NCBI RefSeq assembly: GCF_019104765.1
Contig: NZ_JAHRXJ010000004.1
Coordinates: 62,001-126,000 of the forward strand
DNA length: 64,000 bases
Direction of reading: 5' to 3'
DNA from: Synechococcus sp. HK05
Lineage (GTDB): Bacteria > Cyanobacteriota > Cyanobacteriia > PCC-6307 > Cyanobiaceae
Shown here: piece after piece, positions 7,341 to 44,508 of the stretch
How the letters are laid out: each line of letters begins with the position of its first letter
How positions within the stretch are numbered: position 1 is the stretch's first letter
Translations under genes and position numbers: made by a program
The notes under the pieces: generated by a model
What the model saw: the letters and a program-made list of their open reading frames with translations, nothing else
Databases searched by the model: none
Told to the model about the DNA's origin: nothing

Positions 7341-7511
7341 GGATGGGATGCGGCTGGGCCCAGCATGGCGCCGAAGGGAAGTCGTGGCACGACACAGCTG
7401 AGACGCAGTCTGAACTGGACGTCTTGACGGTCTGCCCGGCGCTGTGAGCTGATGGTGTCGGTACCCGTGCTGTGGACCTCAACCTTGCGCGCCCCTTCCC
7501 CTGCAGCTCCA

Positions 7512-7688
7512 ATGGATCAGGCGGAATGGACCGTGGTGCGCCTGCCATCGGCCTTGGATCTGGCGCGCTCCGGAGAGCGCAAGCGGCCCTGGCTCACGCG
7601 CTCCGAAGAGCAGGCCAAGCAGCAGGCACGCCTCGAGCGGGTGCGGCGCGAAAACGGCATCCCCTCTCCCGACGACTGGATGTGGTGA
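7512..7688 (+). CDS. Small charged hypothetical protein
   Basis: A 58-residue protein from the ATG at 7512 (MDQAEWTVVRLPSALDLARSG). The frame is open back to 7452, but the upstream part is of low-complexity Pro/Ala type and unlikely to be translated. The centre is a basic helical stretch (RKRPWLTRSEEQAKQQARLERVRRENG) and the end is PSPDDWMW. It is cytosolic and unrecognised. The composition is protein-like, with a strong helix and a tryptophan-rich end, and it is followed by a secreted-protein gene on the same strand. Confidence 0.55.
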   Translation: MDQAEWTVVRLPSALDLARSGERKRPWLTRSEEQAKQQARLERVRRENGIPSPDDWMW

Positions 7689-41409: not shown

Positions 41410-42489
41410 CTATGCGGCCTGCCGGTAGCGCTCCTTGAGGAACTGATACGCCTCGTTCAAGCGACGCATCGCATCGGCGGAACCCCCTGCATCGGGGTGG
41501 TGGCTCTGGGCCTGTTCTCGATAGGCCTCGCGAATCTCCTTAAGCGTGTATGGCCGATCCGCGATGGTGGGTAGTTGCAGCAGGCGCAGGGCGCCATGCA
41601 CGGTCATCGATTGGTCGATGGCATCAAACGACGTGCGCCGTTTCTGTCGGCTGCGTTGTCGTTGCACGAACCGCGTGATCAAGGTGGGGACCCGCATCGC
41701 CAGGCTGTTGGCCCCGAAGGGGTCCTCCAAGATGCCGGCGGCGGTGATCACCCGGTCAAGACTTGGATCTCCCGCCAGCCAGCCGGGGGCAAACGACATC
41801 AACACCTGCTGTGCCAGGCCCCAGCTGAAGGGGCGACCATCGCTGTGGTCCGACTGGGGCCAGATGTCTCGAGCCAGCCAAGTGAGCGCTGCATCCTGCG
41901 CGGCTTCGCTGGGGGGTGTTCCGTAGATCTCCAGCCAATGCTGTTGCGCGCGTTGGAGCGCCTCGGCTAATGCGTCGGATGGGATCAGGGCCAGGGCGTT
42001 CGCGCGGTCGTCGCTACTTGGGGTGGCCTGTTCAGCCAGGCTGCGCTTCACCGCCTGGGCTTGCCTACGCACAAATCCGGGCAACTGAATCCCAGCAACA
42101 GCTCCGCTCGTCGACTGCGTTGCGGCATCAGCTGTCTTAGGCGCGACGCGACACTGGTCTTGTGCTGGGACAAGTGCTGATCCAATGAGAACAATGGCCG
42201 TGTTCTCGTCGAGCTCGCCAGGTCTGGTCGAGACCATCGCGCCCTCGCCCGCCTCAGCTGCCGGCAGGCCCGCGTCATCACCGGATGTGGGACGTGGCTC
42301 CGGATCGCTCGTCTCATCGCCTGGAGACGAGCGATCATCGAGGTCTGGAACCAGCTCGCGGAGCAACTGTTCCACGATGAGTCCGCGGCTGCGGAAGCCC
42401 ATCTGAGACTTCAATCCATCGATCCAGCCCAGCAGATCAGCGCTGAGTTCCAGGGTGATGCGCCGTTTGTCGGATCCGCTCTCCCCCAC
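41410..42489 (-). CDS. Ribbon-helix-helix/J-domain fusion protein
   Basis: A 359-residue protein from a GTG. Residues about 8-48 (RRITLELSADLLGWIDGLKSQMGFRSRGLIVEQLLREL) have the strand-helix-helix pattern of RHH (CopG/MetJ-like) DNA-binding domains. A long acidic and Pro/Ser-rich linker follows, then a helical middle domain (ALAEALQRAQQHWLEIYG...). The C-terminal 55 residues are a J domain (YTLKEIREAYREQAQSHHPDAGGSADAMRRLNEAYQFLKERY) with the HPD motif that stimulates DnaK ATPase. A protein joining an RHH domain to a J domain would link DNA binding or dimerization with Hsp70. It is 25 bases downstream of the DUF3370 gene on the same strand. Confidence 0.75.
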   Translation of the reverse strand: MGESGSDKRRITLELSADLLGWIDGLKSQMGFRSRGLIVEQLLRELVPDLDDRSSPGDETSDPEPRPTSGDDAGLPAAEAGEGAMVSTRPGELDENTAIVLIGSALVPAQDQCRVAPKTADAATQSTSGAVAGIQLPGFVRRQAQAVKRSLAEQATPSSDDRANALALIPSDALAEALQRAQQHWLEIYGTPPSEAAQDAALTWLARDIWPQSDHSDGRPFSWGLAQQVLMSFAPGWLAGDPSLDRVITAAGILEDPFGANSLAMRVPTLITRFVQRQRSRQKRRTSFDAIDQSMTVHGALRLLQLPTIADRPYTLKEIREAYREQAQSHHPDAGGSADAMRRLNEAYQFLKERYRQAA

Positions 42490-42514: not shown

Positions 42515-44119
42515 TTATCGGCCCATCAGGGAATTCATCAGCTGCTGTTGTGCCTGCACCGCTTGTTGGTAGCGCTCCATCAGGCTCTGGCTCATCCGGG
42601 TCGGTGTGATCACCGCAGGGGGCAGCCCCTGCATGCTCGGTACGGGCGGCAGTGGCTGCATCCATCCGGGGGTCGCCACCACAGCAGGGGCCTGAGGCTT
42701 TGGCTTCGAGGCTGCGACCCGGGGCTTCGGCTTCGCCGGAGCAGGAGCTGGGGCGTTGGCAACAGCTGGGGCGGCGGGCGCGGCGGGTGCGCTCGGTGCA
42801 GGCTTGGGCTTGGTGGCCTGCGCGGCGGCCAGGACCTGCTCCCGCTGGCGAAGCTGCGCGAGCTGCTGGTCGGGCACCACGCTGAGCAGGTGCCCGGGTG
42901 TGGCGTCAGCCGGATACACCAGGCTCACCTTCACAGGGTTGTTTTGGCCCGGCTTGAGATTCAGCGAGGCAATCGGCAGGCTCTGACCGGAGCGCATGCC
43001 CACATGAACCTCGCGGTAGCCCTCATCGGTTTCGATGCCAATTGAGCCACGGAAGGCGGTGAATTGCTTTCCATTGGGGGTGGGATGACTGAAGACCAAT
43101 TGATGTGGACCCGAACCTTGCAGGTTCAGCTGCACATCGAAGAGAACGCCATAGGTGCCCACGTTGTCGAGCGATGAATCGATCATCCGTACCGCCAACT
43201 GGTTCACCTGAACTTCACGCGTGCCAAAGTGGTGCCGATTAGTGCTTGTTAGTGGGACGTGCAAAGAGCCTTGACTGAGGTCATGGCTGAGGCTGGCGGT
43301 GTATGTATCGCCCAGGGCCACGCCTCCCACCCGCGAAAACACAATGCCCTCCTGGATCTGGCGAATCCGGCTCAGATAGATGCGGCCGGGCGCGAGGCGT
43401 TTGCTGTCGAGCACTGCCAGGATGTCGGCATCACTTTGGGGATCACGGGCGGCGACCACGGCCATCTGGAAAGGCCCATCACTGCGGCCCCGCAGCAATC
43501 CGTTGGCGATGCCCAGAGCCGGTAGGGCTGTGCTGAACAACACAATGCGGCTGTTGGGCGGGATCGTGATCTCGTCCTCGAGTTTCCGGTCGAGCTGACC
43601 GCGCAGCATCTGCACAGCGGTGGCGTCACCAGGGCCAGTGTTCCAGGGGCGCGGGCCGAGGGGCTTCACCCCCATCAGGTTGTTGGCGAGGTAAGGCGCC
43701 TCGAAGCTGTTGCGCACCGCCCCTTTCTTGAAGCGGATGTGCACCGGGCGCGAGCCCGGGTTGATCAGGATCGTGGCCAGGGTGAGTTCACCGCGGCGGC
43801 CATTGGCGCCACGCACACGGCTGCGATCAGCCGGATCGTATTTGTGGTGAACGTGCAGGCCGAACTCACCGTTGAAGGTGTAGGTGGCGTTGGCCAGTGG
43901 CTGGTTGGTCTCGGCTGCAATCGCTGAGCCAGGGCGGGTGTCCACCAGGATCCCGGGGCCGAGCACCTCTTCGGGTTGGTTGGAGTGCAGCACCGGCACG
44001 TTGTTAAACGTGCCGCCCAAGGGGCGAGCCGATTGCCCGGCCATCAGCGCCACATAGGCCTGAGACGGAACGGGCGCCACGATCACGCTGCCGAGCAGCG
44101 CCAGAAACAACACCTTCAT
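42515..44119 (-). CDS. DUF3370 exported protein
   Basis: A 534-residue protein from the ATG at 44119, with a signal peptide (VLFLALLGSVIVAPVPSQAYVALM). The N-terminal 400 residues are a DUF3370 domain, found mostly in cyanobacteria, with NVPVLHSNQPEEVLGPGILVDTRPG, GEFGLHVHHKYDPADRS and TILINPGSRPVHIRFKKGAV. The C-terminal 130 residues are a long Ala/Pro/Lys-rich linker (APSAPAAPAAPAV..., PKPKPRVAASKPKP) and a Gln-rich end, suggesting a wall-spanning or surface tether. It is probably periplasmic or on the surface, with function unknown. Confidence 0.85.
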   Translation of the reverse strand: MKVLFLALLGSVIVAPVPSQAYVALMAGQSARPLGGTFNNVPVLHSNQPEEVLGPGILVDTRPGSAIAAETNQPLANATYTFNGEFGLHVHHKYDPADRSRVRGANGRRGELTLATILINPGSRPVHIRFKKGAVRNSFEAPYLANNLMGVKPLGPRPWNTGPGDATAVQMLRGQLDRKLEDEITIPPNSRIVLFSTALPALGIANGLLRGRSDGPFQMAVVAARDPQSDADILAVLDSKRLAPGRIYLSRIRQIQEGIVFSRVGGVALGDTYTASLSHDLSQGSLHVPLTSTNRHHFGTREVQVNQLAVRMIDSSLDNVGTYGVLFDVQLNLQGSGPHQLVFSHPTPNGKQFTAFRGSIGIETDEGYREVHVGMRSGQSLPIASLNLKPGQNNPVKVSLVYPADATPGHLLSVVPDQQLAQLRQREQVLAAAQATKPKPAPSAPAAPAAPAVANAPAPAPAKPKPRVAASKPKPQAPAVVATPGWMQPLPPVPSMQGLPPAVITPTRMSQSLMERYQQAVQAQQQLMNSLMGR

Positions 44120-44325
44120 CGGAGCTCTGGGTCCCACTGCTCTCACCCTGCGATCAGAACAGCCAGAGGTGGCCGTGGGTTCCGAATTGCTTTAGCTCTG
44201 TCGGCATGAAAATCAGTCAAAGCAAGAGGTTCTGGCCTCTTAACGGAGGCGATCCAGGCCCGTCGATCCATTCCCGCGGTCGGCCCCTGTCGACCGCTAG
44301 AACAACAACTGCTCCTTATTTTCCC

Positions 44326-44508
44326 ATGTTCCCGCCATTCTTTGGCTGCGGAGACAGCACCAACCCCCAGCAGTGCCGCCGCCGTCATCAGGAGCGCAAG
44401 CTCCACACCCTCACCTTCTGGCGGGATGGGCTGGAGCGTCAGCTGGCGGCGATCAACGCCGCGATCAGCACCCTTGAGCGCCAGATGCAGGACTCAGCTG
44501 ACGCCTGA
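44326..44508 (+). CDS. Small coiled-coil protein
   Basis: A 60-residue protein from the ATG at 44326 (MFPPFFGCGDSTNPQQCRRRHQERKLH...). A basic motif and two cysteines are followed by an amphipathic helix (FWRDGLERQLAAINAAISTLERQM) likely to form a coiled coil. The frame is open to 44206, but the extra part is not protein-like. The last 44 bases overlap the end of the convergent sigma-factor gene. Function unknown. Confidence 0.6.
   Translation: MFPPFFGCGDSTNPQQCRRRHQERKLHTLTFWRDGLERQLAAINAAISTLERQMQDSADA

Follow-up and report, generated by a model that had tools for sequence, protein, structure and literature searches.

Results

A ribbon-helix-helix protein that ends in a J domain

The window, a 64,000-nucleotide stretch of DNA from Synechococcus sp. 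HK05, carries on its minus strand an open reading frame (41410-42489) with a GTG start. It encodes a protein of 359 aa in which a ribbon-helix-helix (RHH) domain, a linker, a helical middle domain and a J domain follow one another. Profiles, an AlphaFold model, structural alignment and conservation place the RHH domain at residues 8-48 (42346-42468, minus strand), with a strand segment at 10-15 and helices at 17-30 and 35-46. The family alignment reveals a linker motif at residues 94-104 (42178-42210, minus strand; consensus DExxALVLI; mean pairwise identity 0.49), and the alignment and the model reveal a second motif at residues 132-150 (42040-42096, minus strand; consensus GIDLPGFVR, then a helix; mean pairwise identity 0.57). 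The middle domain, supported by profiles, the model and conservation, spans residues 169-285 (41635-41985, minus strand). Pfam, PDB matches and conservation delimit the J domain at residues 294-355 (41425-41610, minus strand), with its HPD at 331-333.

Across 44 aligned rows, mean pairwise identity is 0.48 in the RHH domain, 0.49 in the middle domain and 0.68 in the J domain, as against 0.11-0.17 in the three intervening stretches, a contrast that fits selection acting on all three domains. AlphaFold predicts the RHH and J domains with high confidence; the pTM of the full-length model is 0.46, so the relative placement of the domains is unreliable. The fusion of an RHH domain to a J domain, which a sequence-only reading had proposed, is real: profiles and structure comparison support both domains, and both are conserved across the family.

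The J domain retains the residues expected to face DnaK

Pfam DnaJ matches residues 314-354 of the window protein above its cut-off (E=9.7e-7; 29.2 bits, cut-off 27.8) and also matches all 44 aligned homologues. These matches and the structure identify a J-domain fold with an HPD between helices II and III, and the C-terminal J domain with intact HPD first recognized from the letters is thereby upheld. H331, P332, D333, R320 and A327 are invariant in 44/44 homologues and Y323 is kept in 43, all at what we take to be the equivalents of the DnaJ residues that bind DnaK; position 324 is R or K throughout. The DnaK-facing surface of the domain thus appears intact.

The best PDB sequence match of the J domain is Tim14 (2guz_A, 1e-5) and the best structural match is 2guz_B (Z 9.1, 1.9 A over 64), chain B of the Tim14-Tim16 complex and presumably Tim16. 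The protein shares a J domain with HPD with the class C J-proteins (Tim14/Pam18-like), to which it adds an RHH domain and an unmatched helical domain. In contrast to DnaJ and CbpA (classes A and B), its J domain is C-terminal and its AlphaFold model consists of helices only, with no strands; the NCBIfam models of DnaJ and CbpA match the J region only, far below cut-off.

Potential partners for such a domain are present in the same cyanobacteria. Each of the six genomes searched for HSP70 gave two strong near-full-length matches, other matches being weak and partial. Genome G007 (1.6 Mb) encodes five J proteins above the Pfam cut-off, the RHH-J protein among them. At loci L110 and L075 the same cyanobacteria also encode a second kind of protein, of about 260 residues, with a C-terminal J domain and without RHH.

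The N-terminal domain belongs to the RHH superfamily

On the window protein alone RHH_1 of Pfam scores 15.3 bits (E=0.02), below its cut-off of 20.5, and a single sequence therefore cannot settle RHH membership. Across the family, RHH_1 matches 37 of the 44 aligned homologues at E<=1, the best at 1e-5, and a profile of the RHH segment finds NikR (4.6e-4) and CopG (0.033) among PDB sequences. The modelled domain was aligned by VIA-align with NikR 2cad (Z 5.9, 1.1 A over 42 residues), NikR 2wvd (Z 6.2, 2.3 A over 45 residues) and Arc 1par (Z 5.0, 3.2 A over 46 residues); for this model the Z values would be middling if taken alone. AlphaFold places the two helices after an extended segment, with pLDDT 86-94 in blocks 11-50. 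DSSP assigns no strand to the RHH domain in the monomer model because the partner strand is missing. Profiles and structure together identify the strand-helix-helix fold of the RHH (CopG/MetJ/Arc) superfamily, and the N-terminal RHH pattern proposed earlier has withstood profile search. The segment is also kept across the family rather than being absent from most homologues. Residues 1-60 score 60.1 bits with a profile of family N-termini from which the 11 rows nearest the window were excluded, against a shuffle maximum of 10.7 (1801 of 2000 shuffles obtained a score), which at the level of sequence shows a family signal that is not chance and says nothing on RHH membership.

Alignment to NikR identifies R10, S/T12 and E/D14 as the presumed DNA-facing strand positions; NikR has R, T and T there, residues that we assume to touch DNA. 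Of the 44 homologues, 40 have R at position 10, 40 have S or T at position 12 and 36 have E or D at position 14. At the start of helix B, presumably where RHH proteins contact the DNA backbone, R33 and R35 are each found in 43/44 and G36 in 44/44. Over the 44 rows, the strand positions 10, 12 and 14 have entropies of 0.58, 1.35 and 1.85 bits. Ten other helix positions were judged exposed, by eye from the RHH pattern and without surface computation; nine of them lie at 2.4-2.85 bits and position 41 at 1.72. The conservation of the strand positions would be compatible with an intertwined dimer that binds DNA sequence-specifically through the strand. The third DNA-facing residue is acidic in place of the T of NikR, and the predicted DNA contact may therefore be unusual. 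Thus, the protein resembles NikR and other RHH proteins (MetJ/Arc/CopG) in its strand-helix-helix, in the R and S/T at the first two strand positions and in structure, but its third position is mostly E/D, and in place of the C-terminal nickel domain of NikR it has a linker modelled with low confidence, followed by the helical and J domains. No NikR model occurs among the NCBIfam matches of the window protein.

With the DnaK-facing J surface apparently intact, residues R10, S/T12 and E/D14 make the bringing of DnaK to DNA-bound complexes the likeliest reading, a prediction from conserved positions. RHH domains are also strong dimerisers, and this one might serve as a dimeriser only, with no DNA step and with the middle domain finding an ordinary cytosolic client. 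The acidic third strand position would suit such a role, as would the homologue at L059 from genus g24 (g2, g3, g7, g21 and g24 denote genera in our sample, and the g2 genomes of 1.6-1.7 Mb are probably Prochlorococcus). There R10, D24, R33 and R35 are all changed and the remaining protein is kept, so this homologue appears to have lost most of the presumed DNA-contacting RHH residues; RHH profile scores are weak in both g24 genomes searched. Across the other rows, however, R10, S/T12, R33 and R35 vary less than the remaining positions taken to be exposed. Dimerisation alone does not explain this, and we regard a dimeriser-only role as distinctly unlikely.

A conserved helical domain lies between the RHH and J domains

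Residues 52-131 form the linker, mostly predicted with low confidence by AlphaFold and read as probably disordered. The sequence-only reading had called it acidic and Pro-rich. Its acidity stands (14 D/E vs 5 K/R), and the window protein has 8 Pro in 80 residues, a count that ranges from 2 to 8 in the 11 rows checked. Within the linker, motif 94-104 stands out against its flanks, whose mean pairwise identities over the 44 rows are 0.12 (52-92) and 0.11 (105-131).

The conserved middle domain and the motifs at 94-104 and 132-150 are features beyond those recognized in that first reading. Predicted alone, residues 169-285 give a compact helical domain of ~115 residues (mean pLDDT 91.3, pTM 0.85), in which W185, Y189, W204, W210, F221, W223, W237 and LEDPF at 254-258 are invariant. 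Foldseek returned no PDB match for it at E<=0.001, which does not show that the domain is a new fold; the best VIA-align result is SifA (Z 4.7, 3.3 A over 77), and none of these matches is convincing. The middle domain is the likeliest site for a client or partner.

The gene is near-core in its family

The protein is conserved among small cyanobacteria of oceans and lakes; its named relatives come from Vulcanococcus, Cyanobium, Synechococcus and cyanobacterial MAGs. Some match at E<=0.001 occurs in 382 of 399 genomes of the same order, part of these matches being other J-proteins. At E<=1e-20 a match is found in 246 of the 269 genomes of the order that are >=90% complete and <=5% contaminated (counted by hand with rounded completeness). 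Among the 23 genomes without such a match are all 7 g21 genomes within these quality limits, as well as G193, in which the gene runs off the contig end; the gene is absent from every g21 genome sampled.

Profile search of a phylum-wide sample of 386 genomes detected the full-length architecture in 57 of 58 genomes of its own family and in none of the 328 others. Among the non-family matches listed, similarity covers the J domain and at most the stretch just before it; the best of these relatives, in G610, matches positions 255-347 (E=1.2e-13) in a frame with no RHH. A profile of the middle domain (E<=0.1) likewise matches 26/26 own-family genomes and two of 188 others, weakly (E 0.02 and 0.06) and in frames with stops. 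Within the samples searched, the architecture was thus seen in its own family alone. A pattern scan of genome contigs, the sole coverage of other phyla, returned twelve proteins of the family and a single match limited to the J domain.

The gene is near-core in its family, with losses in places. A decayed copy remains in place in the g2 genome G036 (100% complete, two contigs; L161 5797-7366), with stops in the RHH part; the profile recognises its RHH and J tail but not its middle domain. No remnant is found between the same neighbours in G105, nor in the stretch fetched from G115 (g21) and from G140. The pseudogene and the absences in nearly complete genomes therefore indicate that the gene is useful but dispensable.

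Mobile and viral collections bear on another possible role, as a replication or partition co-factor that would bring DnaK to initiators or to proteins of the origin. DnaJ and DnaK act on plasmid and phage initiators, this role would employ the same anatomy as DNA-anchored recruitment in general, and J structures of the polyomavirus large T antigen are among the PDB sequence matches. But only 15 of 50,697 phage records and 1 of 72,556 plasmids matched, all in the J region only. The J-protein search of viral contigs returned 76 loci, in which 113 HPD-bearing frames on the plus strands gave nothing with the family RHH profile at E<=5; RHH domains of another kind could escape that profile. Furthermore, no replication gene is among the named neighbours. 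We consider a role as a replication or partition co-factor highly improbable.

Gene neighbourhood and upstream region

In the window the RHH-J gene lies 25 bp after a DUF3370 gene, downstream of a sigma factor gene. We compared the window with 29 further loci, some too short for all genes, naming neighbours by Pfam and pheT by sequence reading. The RHH-J cluster is present in 30/30 of these neighbourhoods, Ap4A phosphorylase in 29 and pheT in 28; 21 show DUF3370, 21 the sigma factor and 19 a phycobilisome gene. The conserved neighbourhood makes inheritance look vertical. At L122 and L123 (g2) the gene lies between Ap4A phosphorylase and pheT, and DUF3370, the sigma factor and the phycobilisome gene are absent there. 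The small genome at L125 also keeps the gene, with the sigma factor and DUF3370 missing beside it. L122 and L123 retain the gene without these neighbours; its function therefore seems independent of the adjacent DUF3370 and sigma factor genes.

Five window neighbours are named by Pfam, none of them a toxin, and one small frame has no match. RHH antitoxins are short stand-alone proteins; this protein, at 359 aa and with two further domains, is not of that kind. Between the sigma factor and DUF3370 genes lies a frame (44206-44508, plus strand) whose cluster occurs in 25/30 neighbourhoods and that has no Pfam match at E<=0.01. At the DUF3370 start (about 44119-44146, minus strand) a block containing GG(T/A)CCCA is kept in 10/10 aligned sequences just before the conserved ATG; it may be leader, or coding if DUF3370 begins at an upstream GTG.

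RHH proteins are mostly repressors, and ours could be a classical repressor with its own chaperone handle, which DnaK remodels or titrates so that repressor activity reports free DnaK. HspR-DnaK, HrcA-GroE and sigma32-DnaK/DnaJ are cases of like regulation with separate chains. An RHH and a J domain on one chain, a linker that could let the J domain reach its own dimer, and a position 25 bp behind DUF3370 and downstream of the sigma factor, a possible operon to regulate, all accord with this proposal. It is opposed by L122, L123 and L125, which lack the sigma factor and DUF3370 beside the gene, and by the conserved middle domain, for which a self-directed handle has no need. The search for an operator likewise speaks against it. 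An upstream block common to g3 and g7 was scanned in five genomes with <=3 mismatches, the reversed pattern serving as control, and gave block vs reversed totals of 8/6 in G002, 8/6 in G008, 6/0 in G019, 10/10 in G049 and 11/5 in G070. We judged the block above its control in two of the five genomes only. Exact copies occur once each in G002, G008 and G019, upstream of the own gene, the other matches having 1-3 mismatches. The scan established no operator, and none was recognised in the aligned leaders of 11 g2 loci or in those of DUF3370 (ten sequences). We therefore rate the repressor with a chaperone handle as unlikely. The other suggestion of the sequence-only reading, regulation of a transcription factor's own turnover, likewise stands as no more than a rival.

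RHH paralogues without a J domain

Short frames (54-167 residues) with the same kind of RHH occur outside the J protein in 17 of 71 own-family genomes, one or more in each; the count was made by hand and leaves out a match in a 439-residue frame of G160. The own genome of the window encodes such a paralogue of 90 aa (L002 1483-1752, minus strand) that passes RHH_1 with 24.0 bits and, over 42 residues, shares 67% identity with the RHH of the window protein. The own-genome paralogue on contig C4, near 7440-7622, lies near a DUF932 gene, and its setting may be mobile or an island. Compared with 44 RHH segments, the paralogues of G000, G045 and G049 best match RHH-J proteins of their own genus, and those of G039, G022, G043 and G056 best match RHH-J proteins of other genera. 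These mixed best matches do not show co-evolution of the paralogues with the RHH of their own lineage.

Discussion

We propose, and give the reading an even chance, that this J-protein is anchored to DNA and directs DnaK to a protein located at its DNA site or close by. It is supported by both folds, the intact HPD, three conserved domains in a conserved place, and DnaK and J-proteins in the same genomes. Against it weigh the acidic third strand position, the changed RHH residues at L059 with the weak RHH scores in g24, the operator search, which established none, and the decay or absence of the gene in some nearly complete genomes. In the proposed mechanism, the RHH domains would pair into a dimer whose two-stranded sheet enters the major groove at chosen sites, as expected from the RHH family. 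The middle and J domains would be tethered to this dimer by a flexible acidic linker. By analogy with other J domains, this one, with its intact HPD and helix II residues, would dock on DnaK and bring about ATP hydrolysis; DnaK, triggered by a DNA-anchored J domain, would as a consequence grip a protein close to the DNA site. Binding of the client or partner, for which a transcription or replication protein is the likeliest candidate, probably falls to the middle domain together with the GIDLPGFV and ALVLI motifs. Anchoring and capture combined, the protein would thereby aim chaperone remodelling at nucleoprotein complexes. Somewhat less than an even chance attaches to a bolder version, in which the protein is a dedicated, sequence-specific DNA-bound Hsp70 recruiter, the J-less RHH paralogues of some genomes tune it as competitors or mixed-dimer partners, and the middle domain is a new kind of client receptor.

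J-proteins usually direct Hsp70 to unfolded, aggregated or membrane-crossing proteins. CbpA is a J-protein that binds curved DNA and is DnaJ-like, with G/F and beta-sandwich domains. In CbpA a single bacterial polypeptide carries a J domain and associates with DNA, as predicted here; in contrast, our protein has a dedicated RHH fold. DNAJC2/ZRF1 and the polyomavirus large T antigen carry a J domain and a DNA or chromatin module in one protein, the J domain preceding the module. They are alike in the fusion itself but are non-bacterial and use other DNA-binding folds (SANT in DNAJC2/ZRF1), and here the J domain follows the RHH. The combination of a J domain with a DNA or chromatin module is thus already known in eukaryotes and in the viral T antigen; the bacterial RHH-J family seems undescribed. 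The claim that no characterised example exists agrees with the open-access literature, in which we found no description of an RHH-J protein; that literature leaves out most subscription papers and does not establish absence in print. Within the main text of one review (PMC8215388), the terms 'DNA-binding' and 'cyanobacteri' do not occur.

The finding draws attention to a domain that is uncharacterised and to a gene that is near-core in the family. If the proposal is true, it would provide a bacterial counterpart to the chromatin-linked J-proteins of eukaryotes, and would open the idea that chaperones act at DNA to direct tests in abundant small-genome phototrophs. Together our data suggest that picocyanobacteria may direct a machine for protein remodelling to selected sites on their DNA.
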